A DNA stretch of 37,668 bases from a virus: the IMG/VR virus record IMGVR_UViG_3300030061_000895, positions 1 through 37,668 of that record. One strand, written 5' to 3'. Below are positions 24,176 through 34,353 of the stretch, piece by piece. Below the pieces are notes generated by a model, which worked only from the letters and a program-made list of their open reading frames with translations, did no database searches and was not told the origin of the DNA. Every line of letters begins with the position of its first letter. Positions within the stretch are counted from its first letter, which is position 1. A program made the position numbers and the translations under genes.

Positions 24176-24255
24176 TTATAGGTTTATTTCTTTTTGGATT
24201 AGCAATTATATCAGTAGTTGCTTATCTAGGTATGAAAGCGACAGGAGCAATATGA
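24172..24255 (+). CDS. Tiny single-span membrane protein (27 residues)
   Basis: ATG at 24172 follows AAGGAGGGTCT, a strong ribosome binding site, and overlaps the preceding stop. The peptide MIIGLFLFGLAIISVVAYLG followed by MKATGAI is one membrane helix. Its TGA overlaps the next start (ATGA), so three tiny genes in a row are coupled. Small membrane peptides of this kind can alter the host envelope; no specific role is visible. Confidence 0.55.
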   Translation: MIIGLFLFGLAIISVVAYLGMKATGAI

Positions 24256-24419
24256 TAGTTCATTTATTATTTATTATCTTTGCTCTTATATTCGCTTTTT
24301 ATTTTGTAGCTTATGCAATGGCAGATGTACAAGATATTAAGAATAAGTTCACGAAGTATATCGGCATTAACTTTCTAAGAGGTGTTAAAGAAGATGACAT
24401 GGAGGAGATGTATGGCTAG
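24252..24419 (+). CDS. Small membrane protein (55 residues)
   Basis: ATG at 24252 is preceded by AGGAGCAAT and overlaps the previous stop. Residues 1-22 are a membrane helix (MIVHLLFIIFALIFAFYFVA), followed by a hydrophilic tail with DVQDIKNKFTKYIGINFLRG and an acidic end. The stop lies 8 bases inside the next gene. Function unknown; it is the third member of the coupled small-gene chain. Confidence 0.6.
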   Translation: MIVHLLFIIFALIFAFYFVAYAMADVQDIKNKFTKYIGINFLRGVKEDDMEEMYG

Positions 24420-25947: not shown

Positions 25948-25978
25948 GAGCCCTCATTAGATTATTCTTTTGAGGGTT
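25948..25978. terminator. Hairpin between convergent genes
   Basis: GAGCCCTCA and TGAGGGTTC form a 9-bp stem with one G-T pair around a 14-base A/T-rich loop, between the plus-strand stop (25935) and the minus-strand stop (25962). The right arm overlaps the last codons of the ParB-like gene. A TTCTTT run in the loop and TTCTTG after the stem could serve plus-strand termination. Confidence 0.55.
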
Positions 25979-26768
25979 CTTGCAATTCATTCTTACACAT
26001 ATCTAACATTTTTTCTGCAGGTTTCTTACCAAGAACACTCCTGATTACTCCTGCCTCTGCACCACTAAAGACTAAAGAAATACGATACATATCTGAATCA
26101 GTTCTAGCCATCTGACGTTCTTCTTCTGTCTTTGCTTCTTGTAATTTCTTTTCAAGATTACGTTGCTGTTCAAGAGCATCAACAGATAATGATTTCATCA
26201 TTGTACCTCCTGATACTTTGTGTTCTGTAGCTTCAACACTATCTTGTTCTGAATCTGCGTCTGTTGGTGTCCATGCAGTAGAAAACTCTTCATTCTTTAG
26301 ACTTTCAGGAGCAGGTATATCTTCAAGCAACCTATTTACTTCTACATCAGATAACATCAATGTATCTTGCGCCCAATCCAATGCTCCTAGCTTTTCTAAA
26401 TCTCTCATTACTTGAGCAGTCAATTGTATATCTTCTGAACCTCTAGCCCTATTATGTCTTAATGTAGATACACGTCTTTGCTCATCTGTCATTTCAACAA
26501 ATACAACAGGAATTTTTTCCATATTTAATGCCTGTGATGCTCTCCATCTATGTTCACCATCAACTATTTCTTTTGATGATTTCTGCACAATTACTGGCTG
26601 AGTAAAGCCATCTTCTTTCATTGACTTAAGTAATAACTCAAAATCTCTATCTGATTGTCTGTTTGGATTGTATGAATTAGGTTTTATGTCTTTTGGTGAC
26701 ACATATGTGATATTTAAAGTTTCTAGTGTTTTATATTGCTTCGCAACATTTGTTTTAACTTCAGACAT
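25962..26768 (-). CDS. ParB-like nuclease-domain protein (IbrB-like)
   Basis: A 268-residue protein. The N-terminal domain (residues 20-120) is ParB-like: VSPKDIKPNSYNPNRQSDRD, LKSMKEDGFTQPVIVQ and the key motif DGEHRWRA at 70-77, then RHNRARGSED. The C-terminal half is charged and helical. It is probably a CTP-binding or nuclease-like ParB relative, not a partition protein: no ParA is present, and it ends an operon that also encodes a PAPS-reductase-like enzyme, the pairing known as IbrA/IbrB in E. coli. The start overlaps the glycosyltransferase-like gene by 8 bases. Confidence 0.8.
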   Translation of the reverse strand: MSEVKTNVAKQYKTLETLNITYVSPKDIKPNSYNPNRQSDRDFELLLKSMKEDGFTQPVIVQKSSKEIVDGEHRWRASQALNMEKIPVVFVEMTDEQRRVSTLRHNRARGSEDIQLTAQVMRDLEKLGALDWAQDTLMLSDVEVNRLLEDIPAPESLKNEEFSTAWTPTDADSEQDSVEATEHKVSGGTMMKSLSVDALEQQRNLEKKLQEAKTEEERQMARTDSDMYRISLVFSGAEAGVIRSVLGKKPAEKMLDMCKNELQEPSKE

Positions 26769-27459
26769 AATATTTATAATACTCCTTTGATAATGCTGAT
26801 GGACTTTTTAAAAATTTCTTATCAGACCAGTTATAATCTAAATAATTCTTATTTTCAACAAACCATCTCGCTTTTCTATTTTTATTATTATTGCCAACAA
26901 TAGATGAATCTGCACCTGCATGATTAACTAAAGATGGCATTGGACACATTGCAGGTATTTTTTGATCAACTAAAAACATGGCAAGTCTAGAATCATCCCA
27001 CTTAAAATTAGGAAGTATATGATTCTTTTCCCATTTTAAAAACTTTGCAATCATAGATTGTGGCAATACTATAGCTTGACCCCATGTTCCATCAGGTATT
27101 TGACACCACCTTATATCTTGATTTTTAGCTTCTTCACAGATTTTTCTGTTTGCATACAACCCTAGAGGGTGTTCAGGATATGTTTCTATACATTTCTTGA
27201 CAGTCTGAATAAATTGTTCACAGAGTTCTACATCATCTTGTATAACTAAATGATGTGTGCATTTTGTGGATAACCCCCACATCCAGCATTGTCTTGCATT
27301 ATACCATACTCCCTTTTGATACCAGTCTGCAAATATCTTGAAATCTTCAACCTCTTGTTGTATAGTACGCACCGAAATTTTATTTATCATATATTCTACA
27401 TGATGTCTTCTTCCAATGAAAGCTGGTGTGTGCATTAAGGCAATACTAAGACGTATCAT
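26761..27459 (-). CDS. Glycosyltransferase-like protein (GT-A type pattern)
   Basis: A 232-residue protein. It begins MIRLSIALMHTPAFIGRRHH, and residues 66-80 read KCTHHLVIQDDVELC, where DDV resembles the metal-binding DxD site of GT-A enzymes. GTWGQAIVLPQSMIAKFLKW and CPMPSLVNHAGADSSIVGNN follow, matching a phage family often annotated as glycosyltransferase. The target could be phage DNA or a host surface sugar; the sequence does not tell. It overlaps both neighbours (ATGA upstream, 8 bases downstream). Confidence 0.65.
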   Translation of the reverse strand: MIRLSIALMHTPAFIGRRHHVEYMINKISVRTIQQEVEDFKIFADWYQKGVWYNARQCWMWGLSTKCTHHLVIQDDVELCEQFIQTVKKCIETYPEHPLGLYANRKICEEAKNQDIRWCQIPDGTWGQAIVLPQSMIAKFLKWEKNHILPNFKWDDSRLAMFLVDQKIPAMCPMPSLVNHAGADSSIVGNNNKNRKARWFVENKNYLDYNWSDKKFLKSPSALSKEYYKYYV

Positions 27460-27728
27460 TTTTTTGCCTTATTTATTAATAATTGTTTAGGTCTATTTAT
27501 TTCAGTAACCCAATACTTATAATCTCCTGAATAATAATATCTATATGTTCTATTACCAAATTTTTCATCTTTGCCATAATACTCTATAACCTGAAGACAA
27601 AACTCCCACATAAAATAATCTTTACATTCTAATCTTTTTGAATACCAATGTGGTGCAGTTTTCTCATAAGTCTTTGCCCACTTCCAATTTAATTCATTAA
27701 AGCATCTGCCGATACCTGTGGTCACCAT
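27456..27728 (-). CDS. Small conserved phage protein, unknown
   Basis: A 90-residue protein from ATG at 27728 (MVTTGIGRCFNELNWKWAKT), inside the end of the PP-loop gene. A TTG six codons earlier is less likely. The pattern NWKWAKTYEKTAPHWYSKR ... FMWEFCLQVIEYYGKDEKFG ... YKYWVTEINRPKQLLINKA is conserved in short proteins of several phages, often near modification genes, but no activity is known to me. Overlaps of 7 bases and ATGA join it to the enzymes on either side. Confidence 0.65.
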   Translation of the reverse strand: MVTTGIGRCFNELNWKWAKTYEKTAPHWYSKRLECKDYFMWEFCLQVIEYYGKDEKFGNRTYRYYYSGDYKYWVTEINRPKQLLINKAKK

Positions 27729-28855
27729 GTTGGTTTTCCACCCCAAGTTCCTGCACCTTTTCTAAAAAATTCAGGTTCTATATTATGAAGTAAGCCATCT
27801 GTTTTTAAAGAAAAAGGGTCACCATTCCATAAAGCATGAGCAAGGTTTCTCCATGAACCTAATGTTCTTGACGTTCTTTCTGCAATCTTTTCAGGAAAAG
27901 GATTACTAGATACATTTGAATGTCTTTTTAATAAACTATCTCTGACTATAATTGCTCTTTCTTTTATCCAGTCAGGAGCATCATCAATACACTCTCTATG
28001 AAAACAATCTCTCCATGTTTCACCTAATTTCCTTGTTGGTGTTACTGCATGTTTTCCAAATTGTGCTGCAGTTTTGACACCAGGCAGACGTACACAAACT
28101 TGATCAAACCATTTAGGAAAAGCTTTTGCACCAAGTTCTAAATCTTTTATTCCTGCTTGGCTCATTGTTGGTGGTGCTATTCTCATTTTAGCTCTACTTC
28201 TGCCCATACGATGCATATCATCATAAGCACTACAATAATCCCAACCAAAATCAAACATAGCTTTCCAAACATCTCCAGTAGTCCAATCATATATTGGTCT
28301 TGCACTAGCATATCCTTTATTAGGTTTCGTAACAAAATTTTTAGAAGAAAAAAGACCCATACGTCTGTTTGGACTTTCTTCTACACGTAGACCAGTTACT
28401 GCATAAGTAATCTTACCCTCATCTGTAGGAAATCTTTCTTTTGTTATCAATGCTCCAATATGTTTTTCAGGAATAGACTCTGCATAAGATGGTGGTGTTC
28501 TTACCCATTGTTCTTTAGGTAAAGCTGGGTCCATAACCCAAAAATAAGGACTTTCACGATTGAATATGTTTATGATAGGTTGATGTGCTACAAGCCAATG
28601 AAAACGCACCTCAGGACGTTTAACGACCCTTTCACAGTACTCAAAGGTTCCAGGAAACATTATTTCCTCATCACGCATGACTACATCAACTGGCAGATTA
28701 CCAGTTTTTTTTGCGGCAAGTATACAAAGCTCAAGACATATTGTGCTGTCCTTACCACCACTAAAAGAAACAACTACTTTGTGTCCTGCATTATATAAAC
28801 TTTCTATTCTTTGTACTGCTGCACTAAAAACATTAAGGTTAAGATATTTTTTCAC
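27722..28855 (-). CDS. PP-loop PAPS-reductase-like protein (IbrA-like)
   Basis: A 377-residue protein of the PAPS reductase/N-type ATP pyrophosphatase superfamily. The PP-loop is VVVSFSGGKDST (SGGKDS at 32-37). RDEEIMFPGTFEYCERVV and YAVTGLRVEESPNRR follow, then ARPIYDWTTGDVWKAMFDFG, the segment that places the substrate in this family. The second half resembles the DUF3440 region of phage and IbrA proteins. It should activate a substrate by adenylation; the true substrate is unknown. The start is GTG at 28855, overlapping the preceding stop (GTGA), with GAGG ahead of it. Confidence 0.85.
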   Translation of the reverse strand: MKKYLNLNVFSAAVQRIESLYNAGHKVVVSFSGGKDSTICLELCILAAKKTGNLPVDVVMRDEEIMFPGTFEYCERVVKRPEVRFHWLVAHQPIINIFNRESPYFWVMDPALPKEQWVRTPPSYAESIPEKHIGALITKERFPTDEGKITYAVTGLRVEESPNRRMGLFSSKNFVTKPNKGYASARPIYDWTTGDVWKAMFDFGWDYCSAYDDMHRMGRSRAKMRIAPPTMSQAGIKDLELGAKAFPKWFDQVCVRLPGVKTAAQFGKHAVTPTRKLGETWRDCFHRECIDDAPDWIKERAIIVRDSLLKRHSNVSSNPFPEKIAERTSRTLGSWRNLAHALWNGDPFSLKTDGLLHNIEPEFFRKGAGTWGGKPTW

Positions 28856-30254: not shown

Positions 30255-30862
30255 CTATTTATTTTACGTCCTCTTTGATAAACAACTGCTGTCTTCATCT
30301 TTTCTAAAAACTCTTCCCATTCTACTGGGTCTGTTAATTTATTCATTAACGCATGTCTTTTATCACTTTCCATTTCTGCGATAAATTTCCACGCATATTT
30401 TTCTAATCTTTGTCTATTTGTTAATTTATTATTTTGATTAACTTTACTTCTATAGAATATATTTGTTCTTTTTGTAACCTGTTTTATTTCCTGACTTATT
30501 ATTTCTGTTCTTACATATTTAACCTTATCCCCTGTATTTTTTGCTATAGTATTATTTAATAAATTATTAGTATTTACTTCTTGGCAAGATTTGCCATTCA
30601 AATTTAATTTATAGATGTTAGTTTTGTTTTCTCTTTGTGTCCAAGTAATCACGTTCTGATTTCTTAAACTGGCAAGACAACTTTGAACACACCTTTTCGA
30701 TAGTTTAGTTTTCATAGCAATGTACTGTATTGAAAAGTACATCTCTTTCATAAAATTATTAAACTTTATGAAAAAACATAGAACTTTTAAGTCATTTCCT
30801 GAAATGTCCATATCAAAGATAAACCTCTCAGGAAGTATTATATATCTTTTTTTCTCTTTAAT
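30251..30862 (-). CDS. Helix-turn-helix (HTH_36-like) DNA-binding protein, probable ATT start
   Basis: A 203-residue protein. The first ATG of the frame is at 30811, but the frame is open 22 codons upstream of it, and that part reads as the missing N-terminus of an HTH_36 domain (RYIILPERFIFDMDISGNDL, then VLCFFIKFNNFM, IAMKTKLSKRCVQSCLASLR). No ATG, GTG or TTG exists there; ATT at 30862 has AGG eight bases ahead and follows the previous stop by five bases. The C-terminal half is lysine- and asparagine-rich. Similar proteins act as phage replication initiators or repressors; which one is unclear. Confidence 0.7.
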   Translation of the reverse strand: MKEKKRYIILPERFIFDMDISGNDLKVLCFFIKFNNFMKEMYFSIQYIAMKTKLSKRCVQSCLASLRNQNVITWTQRENKTNIYKLNLNGKSCQEVNTNNLLNNTIAKNTGDKVKYVRTEIISQEIKQVTKRTNIFYRSKVNQNNKLTNRQRLEKYAWKFIAEMESDKRHALMNKLTDPVEWEEFLEKMKTAVVYQRGRKINR

Positions 30863-30867
30863 AAAGT

Positions 30868-31149
30868 CTACCTGTCGTTTGGATAATACATTTTACCTAC
30901 GTCATTAAAGATGTTCAATGAATCTTTTCCATATTTTTGTGGAAATTCAAAATCCATAGTAGAACTATAAGCAACAACATCAGCCCATTGACTTACTTTA
31001 TCAAATAAACTTGTTGCTGCACTTTTTACATCACCTTTTACAGAAAATGTGACCATGTTATCACTATCTCTATCAAAATAGTAAAAAGCATCTTTGTCTT
31101 CACTATATCCGACAACCTGCATTTTTTCTTCGTTACCTATATTATTCAT
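30868..31149 (-). CDS. First gene of accessory operon, unknown
   Basis: A 93-residue acidic protein, MNNIGNEEKMQVVGYSEDKD at the start. It then has AFYYFDRDSDNMVTFSVKGD, LFDKVSQWADVVAYSSTMDF and the end VGKMYYPNDR. AAAGG lies upstream at fair spacing and a strong promoter precedes it. The aromatic, acidic composition recalls small phage proteins that bind host factors, but no family is recognised. Confidence 0.65.
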   Translation of the reverse strand: MNNIGNEEKMQVVGYSEDKDAFYYFDRDSDNMVTFSVKGDVKSAATSLFDKVSQWADVVAYSSTMDFEFPQKYGKDSLNIFNDVGKMYYPNDR

Positions 31150-31172
31150 AAATATTCCTTTCTTGTTCTGTT

Positions 31173-31202
31173 ATTATATAGTTATTTCTTTGGAATAGTC
31201 AA
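31173..31202 (-). promoter_or_regulatory. Promoter for minus-strand accessory operon
   Basis: On the minus strand TTGACT (31202-31197), an 18-base spacer and a perfect TATAAT (31178-31173) form the best sigma70-type promoter in the window. The start codon at 31149 lies 24 bases after the -10 box. It is divergent from the plus-strand promoter at 31236. Confidence 0.65.
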
Positions 31203-31235
31203 TAATAATTATTATTTATTTTTATTATTTTTTAT

Positions 31236-31263
31236 TTGACATATATGTAGAATAGTTTACAAA
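31236..31263 (+). promoter_or_regulatory. Promoter for plus-strand early cluster
   Basis: Perfect TTGACA at 31236-31241, a 16-base spacer and TACAAA at 31258-31263, followed by ATATAGATAACAAAAACAAATGGAGG, the same leader seen at other early genes. It is divergent from the operon promoter. Confidence 0.5.
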
Positions 31264-31293
31264 TATAGATAACAAAAACAAATGGAGGAAAAC

Positions 31294-31737
31294 ATGAATA
31301 CAATAACATTAAGTAAAAAACAAACTTATGGGAACTTGATAAACAGGGTTGCAGAAAATGCTTGTTTGTTTCCAATTGACCATAAGGTAAAAGTAGGTGA
31401 TGGTGGTACTGAGTATATGTGGTCTGATAGAGTACCTTATTCAGTTTGTTCAGTTGATTACAACTGGAAAAACAAAGGATATGAGATCATTGGTGTACAA
31501 AGAGATCATGCAAAAAGAACAGATAACAATGGTATGAGTGAATCTCAAACGTATGAATTTACTCCTAACATTGAAGCACCAGTAAACTATCTTAGATCAT
31601 ATACTTATGAAAAAGATGGTAAGACTTGGAAATACTATTCGCCAGTTAGATGGAATAGTAAAACAAACAGATGGAACGCAGGTGGTCGTGCAGTAACTCT
31701 TGGTAGAAGAGAGAGTTATTGGGATCCATCATTTTAG
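31294..31737 (+). CDS. Early protein, unknown (147 residues)
   Basis: ATG at 31294 (MNTITLSKKQTYGNLINRVA) follows GGAGG by five bases; an ATG four codons upstream is itself part of the TGGAGG leader. The protein is rich in Tyr, Trp and Asn with strand-like segments (YSVCSVDYNWKNKGYEIIGV, TYEKDGKTWKYYSPVRW) and closes GRAVTLGRRESYWDPSF. No family is recognised. As the first gene after a strong leader it is probably an abundant early product. Confidence 0.65.
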   Translation: MNTITLSKKQTYGNLINRVAENACLFPIDHKVKVGDGGTEYMWSDRVPYSVCSVDYNWKNKGYEIIGVQRDHAKRTDNNGMSESQTYEFTPNIEAPVNYLRSYTYEKDGKTWKYYSPVRWNSKTNRWNAGGRAVTLGRRESYWDPSF

Positions 31738-31746
31738 GAGGGATAT

Positions 31747-32058
31747 ATGGGACATAGTTCAAAAAATATAGACTTGTATGATAGTGACATTGGTAAAAAA
31801 GTTTTTACCATAAAAGAAGAAAAAACAATTGTCATTGAATGGCAAGTCAAAGCTAAAGATGAAAATGAGGCATTTGACAAATGGTTAGATGCACCAAAAG
31901 ATGCAACAATGGAAGATCACAAAGTAAGGGATAATGGTGATGATGTAGTATGTACTTATGCAAAAGAATATAGTGAACTCACAGAGGGTATGAGAGAGAA
32001 AGGTACAATACAAAAGGAAGATCCTGATGATGAAGATAGTGATTTGGAGGTTGCTTGA
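31747..32058 (+). CDS. Acidic early protein, unknown (103 residues)
   Basis: A GGAGGGATAT site precedes the ATG. The protein begins MGHSSKNIDLYDSDIGKKVF, has a strand-rich middle (EKTIVIEWQVKAKDENEAFD) and a very acidic end (EDPDDEDSDLEVA). The IEWQV-KAKDENEAF pattern recurs in short phage proteins with a repeated beta-alpha unit. Highly acidic early phage proteins may mimic DNA, but nothing more supports that here. Confidence 0.6.
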   Translation: MGHSSKNIDLYDSDIGKKVFTIKEEKTIVIEWQVKAKDENEAFDKWLDAPKDATMEDHKVRDNGDDVVCTYAKEYSELTEGMREKGTIQKEDPDDEDSDLEVA

Positions 32059-32252
32059 GAGATTTTGTTGTTGTTAAAATTAAAAAAGAAACAATATCAA
32101 AAGCATATAATCAGTTTAGATTACTAAAAATTATTGGCTCATCTGTAGTACAAAAAGGTGAGCCATACACTAAATTGATTAATGAAATCAAGTCAAGTGT
32201 TCTAAAAAAACAGTCTATTTGGTCAAAAATTAAAAACTTCTTGACATTTTAA
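32055..32252 (+). CDS. Small basic protein, TTG start
   Basis: TTG at 32055 overlaps the previous stop (TTGA) with GGAGG four bases ahead. The 65 residues (MRDFVVVKIKKETISKAYNQ ... IWSKIKNFLTF) are basic and helical. The overlap and the ribosome binding site favour real translation, though an ATG is missing. The last codons contain the TTGACA box of the RNA promoter. No family recognised. Confidence 0.5.
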   Translation: MRDFVVVKIKKETISKAYNQFRLLKIIGSSVVQKGEPYTKLINEIKSSVLKKQSIWSKIKNFLTF

Positions 32253-32270
32253 AAACTATTTTGTTATTAT
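32241..32270 (+). promoter_or_regulatory. Promoter of the structured RNA locus
   Basis: Perfect TTGACA (32241-32246), an 18-base spacer and TATTAT (32265-32270). The predicted start near 32277 coincides with the first base pairs of the RNA hairpin that follows. The -35 box lies inside the end of the preceding small gene. Confidence 0.55.
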
Positions 32271-32275
32271 AAATC

Positions 32276-32408
32276 TTGGTGTGGACAGTCCACCAAAATT
32301 CATAAATGTAATGCAGGTGTGAGGTATCAGTAATGATCTCAATAGGTTAGTCGGACATCCTTTGTCCAACTCCATTACCTATGTTAGCACCTGCATACTT
32401 TATTTATG
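32276..32408 (+). ncRNA. Candidate structured small RNA (5' hairpin plus three-way junction)
   Basis: The 232 bases between the small gene ending at 32252 and the gene at 32485 contain no convincing protein frame but dense complementarity. A 5' hairpin pairs TTGGTG (32276-32281) with CACCAA (32291-32296). An outer stem pairs CATAAAT (32301-32307) with ATTTATG (32402-32408) and, after an internal loop, ATGCAGGTG (32311-32319) with CACCTGCAT (32388-32396). Inside are GAG/CTC plus ATCA/TGAT closed by a GTAA tetraloop (32321-32340), then ATAGGT/ACCTAT (32342-32347, 32377-32382) around GGACA/TGTCC (32353-32357, 32363-32367). The 5' loop TGGACA is complementary to TGTCCA (32363-32368), allowing an alternative fold. 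A regulatory small RNA or cis-acting leader of the next gene are both possible; no known family was recognised. Confidence 0.6.
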
Positions 32409-32426
32409 GATAATTAATTTTAATCA

Positions 32427-32480
32427 TTGACAATCATTTTTTTATTCGTAAAGGTAAATATAACAGAAAACAAATGGAGA
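32427..32480 (+). promoter_or_regulatory. TTGACA box and conserved leader before 32485
   Basis: TTGACA at 32427-32432 has no standard -10 box at the usual distance (TAAATA at 32455-32460 is 22 bases away). It is followed by the common leader AACAGAAAACAAATGGAGAA that ends in the ribosome binding site. A weak or activated promoter is possible. Confidence 0.4.
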
Positions 32481-32484
32481 AAAG

Positions 32485-32979
32485 ATGAATATATTTCATT
32501 TAGATACAGACCCAAGAACTTGTGCAGAATATCATTGTGATAAACACGTTTGTAAGATGATAGTAGAAACAACTCAAATGTTATGTAGTGCTTACCAAAG
32601 ATACAATGGTCGTGATGAACGTCTTTACAAAATAGGTTTCAAGAACCATCCTATGACACTTTGGGTAGGTAATAGTTTTAAACATTATGACTGGACTATA
32701 AAATTATTGTATCACTTACTACAAGAATATATAATAAGGTATCGTAAGATACATAAATCAACAGAACAGTTTGAGATACTTACTAGTATTGATTACTTTC
32801 CAAAAATGAGTTGTCTTATGCCTTGTCATTATGAGATACCTCCCCTTTGTATGCCTGACAAATATAAAAACAATCACGACTTTATAAAAGCATATCGTGA
32901 TTATTACATTGGTGACAAAAGCTATTTTGCAAAATGGAAGTTTACAGAAACACCAACTTGGTACAGACATGCAGGGTAA
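32485..32979 (+). CDS. Conserved marine-phage protein, unknown (164 residues)
   Basis: The N-terminus MNIFHLDTDPRTCAEYHCDK continues HVCKMIVETTQMLCSAYQRY, then NHPMTLWVGNSFKHYDWTIK, LLQEYIIRYRKIHKS and CLMPCHYEIPPLCMPDKYK, ending AKWKFTETPTWYRHAG. This pattern (NIF-LD-DP--CA---CDKHV-KM--E--Q-L) belongs to a widespread phage family of unknown activity; some relatives have been labelled as DNA repair proteins without proof. GGAG precedes the start. The conserved His and Cys may bind metal. Confidence 0.7.
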   Translation: MNIFHLDTDPRTCAEYHCDKHVCKMIVETTQMLCSAYQRYNGRDERLYKIGFKNHPMTLWVGNSFKHYDWTIKLLYHLLQEYIIRYRKIHKSTEQFEILTSIDYFPKMSCLMPCHYEIPPLCMPDKYKNNHDFIKAYRDYYIGDKSYFAKWKFTETPTWYRHAG

Positions 32980-33334
32980 ATTTGATTTTGATAAATATCC
33001 ACATAAAGCTGGTCATAGAGGTGTTAGAACATCAAAACAATCTGCTGAGGAAATAAATCCTAAATTAAGTAGATTGCAAAAAATGGTATTGATAGAACTA
33101 GAAAAAGTATATCCTGATGGTCTTAATACTTCTGAATTAGCAAAATTAACAAAAAAAAACTTACTTACAATTAGACCAAGAACAACAGAACTTAAATTAT
33201 TAGGTGCAATAATAGATACAGAAAAGACTAGAAAAAACGATGGTGGTAAAGCAGAAATAGTATATAAATTGAGGTCTAAAGATATACTGAAACTTATTGA
33301 GTATTATGGCATCAAAGAATTTAATAAGAAGTAG
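32969..33334 (+). CDS. Winged-helix protein
   Basis: A 121-residue protein from ATG at 32969 (MQGKFDFDKYPHKAGHRGVR), 11 bases inside the preceding gene. Residues 45-115 form a winged-helix domain: LSRLQKMVLIELEKVYPDGL, NTSELAKLTKKNLLTIRPRT, ELKLLGAIIDTEKTRKN and VYKLRSKD. The tail KAGHRGVRTSKQSAEEI before it is like that of phage proteins carrying the same fold. It probably acts as a DNA-binding early regulator or replication accessory. A longer version from ATG 32897 is in-frame but lies inside the preceding gene. Confidence 0.7.
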   Translation: MQGKFDFDKYPHKAGHRGVRTSKQSAEEINPKLSRLQKMVLIELEKVYPDGLNTSELAKLTKKNLLTIRPRTTELKLLGAIIDTEKTRKNDGGKAEIVYKLRSKDILKLIEYYGIKEFNKK

Positions 33335-33626
33335 AACACATCTAAAATTTGTATCAGAACAACCTTGTATAATTTGCTCAAGACCTGATGTACAATCTGC
33401 ACACATAAGATATGCAGGTGCTGGTATTGGTATGAAACCATCTGATCATTTTGTTGTCCCCTTATGTATAGATCATCATTCAGAACAACATCGTATGAAT
33501 GAACGTATGTTTTGGCATTTATACAAAAAAGACCCATTGGTATATGCTTTTTTCTTTTGTCTACAATCACCTGATAAAAAAATAAAGAAATCAAGTTTTG
33601 ATAAATTTAGAAATTTTTTTGAATGA
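33306..33626 (+). CDS. HNH/DUF968-like putative nuclease
   Basis: A 106-residue protein from ATG at 33306 (MASKNLIRSRTHLKFVSEQP). Motifs match DUF968/HNH-like phage proteins: C21-x2-C24 (CIICSRPDVQ), SAHIR around 31-35, GIGMKPSDHFVVPLCIDHHS (C54 and H57-H58) and EQHRMNERMFW. The Cys/His residues should bind zinc and a catalytic metal. Relatives are thought to be recombination-associated nucleases. It starts inside the winged-helix gene (29-base overlap), and its stop overlaps the next start (ATGA). Confidence 0.75.
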   Translation: MASKNLIRSRTHLKFVSEQPCIICSRPDVQSAHIRYAGAGIGMKPSDHFVVPLCIDHHSEQHRMNERMFWHLYKKDPLVYAFFFCLQSPDKKIKKSSFDKFRNFFE

Positions 33627-33838
33627 AAATAATTATTTTAGTCCTTTTATTTAATGGTGATTTAGAACAAAGGGTATACAAATTAAACCCAAAATGGACT
33701 ACATGTAGTACATTTGCAGAACAATACTACAACAAAAATGCAACACATCATTGGGATATAGATGGAGATAGAACAAAACAAGGTTTCTACTTAAATGATG
33801 GTACTGGTACTCTGCAAGGTTACATATGCAAATATTAA
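33623..33838 (+). CDS. Small protein with hydrophobic N-terminus (relative of 7457-7669)
   Basis: A 71-residue protein: MKIIILVLLFNGDLEQRVYK, then WTTCSTFAEQYYNKN and the end GTLQGYICKY. The hydrophobic start with N-G, the YK motif and two widely spaced cysteines repeat the layout of the small gene in the tail block at 7457-7669, though sequence identity is low. A secreted product with a disulphide is possible. Its start overlaps the preceding stop (ATGA). Confidence 0.6.
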   Translation: MKIIILVLLFNGDLEQRVYKLNPKWTTCSTFAEQYYNKNATHHWDIDGDRTKQGFYLNDGTGTLQGYICKY

Positions 33839-33882
33839 TGGAGGAGTATATAATAATAAAAAATATTTTTTATTTTTTGCTA

Positions 33883-33933
33883 TTGACATTTAATAAAAAA
33901 TGTTTATATTGTCAGCATGTTTAAAAAAAACAT
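33883..33933 (+). promoter_or_regulatory. Promoter with overlapping inverted repeats
   Basis: TTGACA (33883-33888), a 16-base spacer and TATATT (33905-33910). Two inverted repeats lie on it: ACATTT/AAATGT (33886-33891 and 33898-33903) across the spacer, and ATGTTT/AAACAT (33917-33922 and 33928-33933) at the likely transcript start. They look like operator sites. The gene at 33961 starts after a GGAGGG site 28 bases on. Confidence 0.55.
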
Positions 33934-33960
33934 ACTAACTAAACTAACTATGGAGGGCTT

Positions 33961-34353
33961 ATGCCACTAATAAATAAACTACCTCAAAGAGTTAATAAAT
34001 GGCTCCAAGATGGTAAGAAGCTTGGTCTTATATCAGACAAGCAACAACTTGACTTTATTTCAAAGTATGTATCTTTGAGATTGTCAGGAACACCAGTCTT
34101 AAAAAGAAAAGCTAAGACTATGGTAGAGGATCAAATTGATAAAGTTATAGATAATTTGATTCCAAAATATAATACCTTTGAAATTGATGTTCTTGTAAAT
34201 GACATTAAAAGAGATGTTAAATATGTCAGCATTACACCATCAATGATTTACCACAGAATACAAAAAAGAGTAGATGCTGGTAAGTTAGATAAGGTTGGAG
34301 TAGAGGGTACAAAAAAAGTAATCTATGCTCTAAAAAAAACATTAAATCAATAA
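33961..34353 (+). CDS. Early protein, unknown (130 residues)
   Basis: A basic helical protein: MPLINKLPQRVNKWLQDGKK, LISDKQQLDFISKYVSLRLSG, then VKYVSITPSMIYHRIQKRVD, AGKLDKVGVEGTKKVIYALKK. The C-terminal helix-turn-helix-like spacing (TPSMIYHRIQKRV) suggests DNA binding, but no family is recognised. It follows the operator-bearing promoter and precedes a ribbon-helix-helix gene. Confidence 0.6.
   Translation: MPLINKLPQRVNKWLQDGKKLGLISDKQQLDFISKYVSLRLSGTPVLKRKAKTMVEDQIDKVIDNLIPKYNTFEIDVLVNDIKRDVKYVSITPSMIYHRIQKRVDAGKLDKVGVEGTKKVIYALKKTLNQ

Follow-up and report, generated by a model that had tools for sequence, protein, structure and literature searches.

Small RNAs encoded by phages are a known kind of molecule. 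By binding the elongation complex of RNA polymerase, the put RNA of phage HK022 suppresses transcription termination; it is about 70 nt in length, is composed of two stem-loops, and acts in cis on E. coli RNA polymerase. The c4 antisense RNA (RF01695) and the sar RNA of phage P22 target phage mRNA by base pairing close to its ribosome binding sites. The putL element of HK022 is located directly downstream of its promoter (PMC9378689). In marine cyanophages, the structured wcaG, manA, and glnA motifs were found by comparative analysis (Weinberg 2010, PMC2864571), and other phage small RNAs have also been reported (PMC12197685). The three cyanophage motifs, all in Rfam, were proposed to be cis-regulators of metabolic genes. 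Here we describe an RNA locus on a stretch of virus DNA of 37,668 nucleotides (IMG/VR record IMGVR_UViG_3300030061_000895, positions 1 to 37,668; hereafter the window), of which both the RNA family and the architecture appear to be new. Like putL and putR, the predicted RNA is folded, would be transcribed early and is indifferent to the gene that follows, and it lies just 3' of an early promoter as judged from the promoter consensus, but it folds into a hairpin plus a three-way junction instead of the two stem-loops within about 70 nt. By using the covariance models of Rfam 15, no family was detected at or above the gathering threshold, neither the c4 model RF01695 nor any of the cyanophage motifs giving a match, and the E-value mode yielded only sub-threshold matches that were unrelated and inconsistent. 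Neither cloverleaf nor tmRNA was found in the RNA by ARAGORN. In the literature covered, mostly papers outside subscription and including PMC12197685 and PMC2864571, no described RNA was recognised as that of the window.

The RNA locus is situated in an intergenic gap at 32253-32484, in agreement with the first-pass annotation, which had described here a gene-free stretch with a TTGACA-18-TATTAT promoter; this promoter is indeed present in the window (Table 1). The fold energy of the 133-mer was -42.7 kcal/mol, with a z-score of -4.3 against dinucleotide shuffles, none of which was equally stable, and the 133-mer starting at 32275 was the most stable among 1138 plus-strand 133-mers scanned throughout the 37.7-kb genome. 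Another segment, 24190-24322 in a region of small ORFs, was also among the strongest plus-strand folds after correction for GC content. As folding alone is weak proof of an RNA, homologues were sought.

Table 1. Features of the RNA locus and its surroundings, in window coordinates
Feature	Position	Strand	Basis
Promoter 1: TTGACA (32241-32246), 18-nt spacer, TATTAT (32265-32270), TG ahead of -10	32241-32270	+	box positions seen in sequence
P0, 5' hairpin UUGGUG/CACCAA, expected start at +1	32276-32296	+	fold; hairpin in every member
P1, 5' strand AUGCAGGUGU	32311-32320	+	compensatory changes at 5 of the 9 P1 pairs modelled
P2 arm with invariant GUAUCAGUAAUGA (32324-32336)	32321-32340	+	all members share an unchanged apex; covariation in lower stem
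P3 arm, variable, with invariant CUCC (32370-32373)	32342-32382	+	alignment; covariation
Junction GUUA, invariant, joining P3 to P1	32383-32386	+	alignment of members
P1, 3' strand GCACCUGCAU	32387-32396	+	P1 covariation
A/U-rich 3' flank, likely region of RNA 3' end	32397-32426	+	presumed 3' end; search for intrinsic terminators negative
Putative promoter 2: TTGACA, weak -10, for downstream genes	32427-32454	+	consensus match only
Downstream gene Pyr_excise/phrog_624 (164 residues)	32485-32979	+	context, outside the RNA

A sole close copy of the window RNA was detected in IMG/VR, on contig 3300030372_002592 (L001, also G001). It shares 121 of the 122 bases of window 32276-32397, as against 51-90% identity at the third codon positions of neighbouring genes on the two contigs; this near-identity shows constraint on the RNA sequence but yields no covariation. 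No sequence other than L001 was recovered with a first model built from this near-identical pair. Relatives of the terminase led to longer contigs, and two of these, G023 and G015, were found to carry a structured region with GTATCAGTAATGA and the identical promoter layout. Scans for a pattern of the GTATCAGTAATGA motif plus CTCC, followed by a relaxed version, added G041, G045, G042, G044, G046, G047, and G043, of which G045 duplicates G041 and G043 duplicates G023. Altogether, seven distinct divergent members on nine further uncultivated phage contigs stand beside L001, and the family set consists of nine distinct sequences including the window and L001. Among 84,980 bacterial and archaeal genomes, no pattern match scored with the family model, and seven pattern matches in bacterial genomes were rejected on this ground. 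When the window and two other members served as queries, no convincing nucleotide match was obtained in 50,697 phage records, and three named phage records searched in full gave none. Weak matches of 16-18 bits (L309, L290, and L277) were taken as chance, as were those of a scan with the P1 helix only, one of which was a tRNA-Leu.

For the test of covariation, the covariance model R2 was built from the seven divergent members, leaving out the window and L001. Within these seven training sequences, 98.7% of the cells were paired, and two-sided changes were found in 9 of 22 pairs. When applied to the window, R2 gave a single match on the plus strand at 32308-32397 (45 bits, E 1.7e-9). After addition of the window and L001, pairing was 99.0%, with two-sided, compensatory changes in 12 of 22 pairs (40 cells). 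The covariation score of this alignment was reached by no shuffle, and pairing fell to 32-47% when one strand was slid by 1-3 bases as control; the nine rows were fitted to the model and lean towards its structure, a bias of which the blind R2 match is independent. Two-sided changes were observed even between close sisters: two for G015/G047 with no pair broken, two for G023/G041, and three for G042/G046; the comparison of G023 with G015 was left out, the P1 strands entered for G015 and G047 being one base too long. G-U pairs occur at several conserved positions of the plus strand and would read A-C on the minus strand, indicating that the plus strand is the RNA. The comparison thus shows that the three-way junction of P1, P2, and P3, together with the 5' hairpin P0, is selected as an RNA on the plus strand, and the covarying stems in homologues, which the first-pass annotation had proposed as a check, were observed in the inner stem as well as in each of the two arms.

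The family is marked by the covarying three-way junction, P2 with GUAUCAGUAAUGA, CUCC, GUUA, and a promoter in register. The hairpin P0 differs in sequence by lineage (UUGGUG/CACCAA, UGAGAG/CUCUCA, or AGGUG/CACCU). P1 closes the junction, ending there in a U-G or U-A pair, and its pairs four and five from the junction are G-C and never vary. Above the covarying lower stem of P2, the two bulged bases UA, the UCA/UGA stem, and the GUAA tetraloop never vary. The CUCC is located on the 3' side of P3. The fold proposed earlier is borne out for the 9-bp helix ATGCAGGTG/CACCTGCAT, both arms, and the GUAA loop, all of which are kept in the relatives. Its 7-bp outer helix CATAAAT/ATTTATG is broken by a deletion and a substitution in L001, which is 96% identical, and was not seen in the other members. 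Two mutually exclusive folds had also been suggested from complementarity between the TGGACA loop and a stem strand; this is conspicuous in the window and, to a lesser degree, in G015, but in no other member, and a switch between the P0 loop and P3 is not supported as a mechanism, the complementarity not being conserved across members.

It is very improbable that the locus is not an RNA gene but encodes a small protein, serves as a DNA operator, or folds by chance. An open frame does span the RNA in the seven members besides the window and L001, and P2 holds a short DNA palindrome. The frame differs by lineage, however, being frame 0 in G023, G042, G044, and G046 and frame 2 in G015, G047, and G041, and its ATG lies 5' of the predicted transcript start in most members; the window carries stops in all three frames, and no reading frame through the RNA is conserved among the members. 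Compensatory changes in three helices argue against this explanation, which the covariation of the aligned sequences practically refutes.

In each of the nine members, the -35 box begins 35-36 nt 5' of the first P0 base, the spacing expected if P0 starts at +1. The box is TTGACA, or TTGACT in G044, and the -10 boxes differ in quality. In two of the genomes this spacing is met at about 1% of positions, a figure to be read with the relatedness of the nine members, whose agreement does not amount to nine independent draws. The fold, the family, and the fixed register of the predicted promoter with the fold are shown by sequence, whereas the transcript and what it does are inferred. Six members carry a further TTGACA or TTGACT at a comparable position behind the RNA, the G042/G044/G046 lineage having weak matches only, which suggests that the RNA forms a separate transcription unit. 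Another strong promoter-like site, TTGACA-16-TATATT at 33883-33910, is found in the gap 33839-33960, which is without significant fold.

These observations bear on the main rival explanation, that a nascent RNA would modify RNA polymerase in cis and cause antitermination of the early operon in the manner of HK022 put. Its location at +1 of an early promoter and its retention whatever gene comes next would be in accord with such a role. The two stem-loops of put differ from the three-way junction, however, and the RNA lies inside the early gene block and not at the block start (a divergent promoter region near 31150-31282). The second promoter-like site behind the RNA also speaks against it, and no intrinsic terminator to be suppressed was found at 30800-34000 of the window. 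We consider this role rather unlikely.

The gene context differs between lineages. Pyr_excise follows the RNA in the window and L001 only; in G023, G015, and G047 its place is taken by the gene of an MITMRINGK protein, in G041 by that of an MKAKDVDIYK protein, and in the G042/G044/G046 lineage by that of a small protein of the MLQIPV type. On the other side, relatives of the 103-residue upstream gene precede the RNA in several members. With four different downstream genes, the proposal of the first-pass annotation that the RNA controls the 164-residue gene is not supported, and the constant downstream gene or pathway of a metabolite riboswitch or leader is not seen. An antisense RNA or leader for the adjacent gene, comparable to c4 RNA or a riboswitch, is unlikely. 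It would find support in the match of CUCCAU to the downstream Shine-Dalgarno sequence AUGGAG in the window, L001, and G023, and in the rank among UTRs of the predicted duplex with the downstream UTR (4 of 43 in the window, 4 of 56 in L001, and 1 of 28 in G023). In G041 and G046, however, the ranks are 20 of 48 and 19 of 26; the downstream gene changes between lineages, a second promoter-like site intervenes between RNA and gene, and the RNA has no match in Rfam.

Structured regions are also found before other Pyr_excise genes. Those of L004, L035, L038, and L042 at first resembled the RNA described here, but the records of L004, L035, and L038 gave no match with the family model, R2 excluding both L035 and L004 from the family. 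The region of L004 (2888-2986, z -3.7), a distant relative of the window phage, lies directly before the Pyr_excise start codon, and that of L035 (541-691) has counterparts in L180 and L181, which carry two extra long hairpins that L035 lacks. The structured region before the Pyr_excise gene of L042 was set aside after comparison with the first, narrow model only.

The RNA might be part of a replication origin in which a structured primer transcript precedes an A/T-rich stretch, and the A/T-rich flank between two promoter-like sites and the minimum of the cumulative GC skew at 31162, 1.1 kb 5' of the RNA, would fit this view. The minimum is accounted for by the switch of coding strand at this point, however, and no other sign of a replication origin was observed, making this role highly doubtful. 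Position 31162 falls in the divergent promoter region between two gene blocks.

The best explanation, which we hold with about even confidence, is a small phage RNA that would be transcribed early as a discrete molecule and act in trans. This agrees with one of the readings of the first-pass annotation, a promoter-driven structured phage RNA of no known family; its homologues covary, and Rfam gave no match. The RNA would be about 120 to 140 nt in length, would be transcribed from its own sigma70-type promoter in the early region, and would be carried by a lineage of uncultivated tailed phages. No intrinsic terminator was found behind it, so that a discrete 3' end is presumed. The likeliest role of P2 with its invariant apex is to dock a protein or a second RNA; a recognition surface is suggested since the paired bases of the apex never change. 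No site complementary to P2 and conserved across the phage genomes was seen. The invariant CUCC is the complement of the Shine-Dalgarno core, and together with the following bases it could pair with Shine-Dalgarno GGAG and so lower the translation of early mRNAs of the phage or of mRNAs of the host, perhaps with the next gene among the targets. Such pairing is plausible from the sequences: AUGGAG is a common Shine-Dalgarno sequence in the genomes of CUCCAU members (window, G001, G023, and G041), and AAGGAG is the dominant one in those of CUCCUU members (G042, G044, and G046), with G015 and G047 as exceptions. The complementarity is short, sits in an arm that is partly paired, and comes from few lineages, and the downstream UTR is not always among the top-ranked partners in predicted duplexes. 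Compared with c4 and sar RNAs, the downstream gene is inconstant and the pairing with Shine-Dalgarno sequences is weakly supported.

For Pyr_excise the best named protein match was Pelagibacter phage HTVC115P (43%), and for the major capsid protein it was Rhizobium phage RHph_X2_25 (48%); from these we would guess an alphaproteobacterial host. No close cultured relative of the lineage was found. The window also carries a cassette of ParB-like, glucosyltransferase-like, and PAPS-reductase-like genes at 25962-28855, perhaps for DNA modification.

The present results add to this phage lineage an RNA family that is backed by covariation and has its own promoter. The covariance alignment, together with the short list of invariant elements (the P2 apex, CUCC, and GUUA), makes single-site mutation possible and the role in infection directly testable. 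A more speculative and, to our judgement, doubtful reading of the invariant P2 is that the RNA, independently of any protein, docks on host machinery such as RNA polymerase, the ribosome, or an RNA chaperone and diverts that machinery early in infection. If true, it would represent a host-takeover RNA of a new class.
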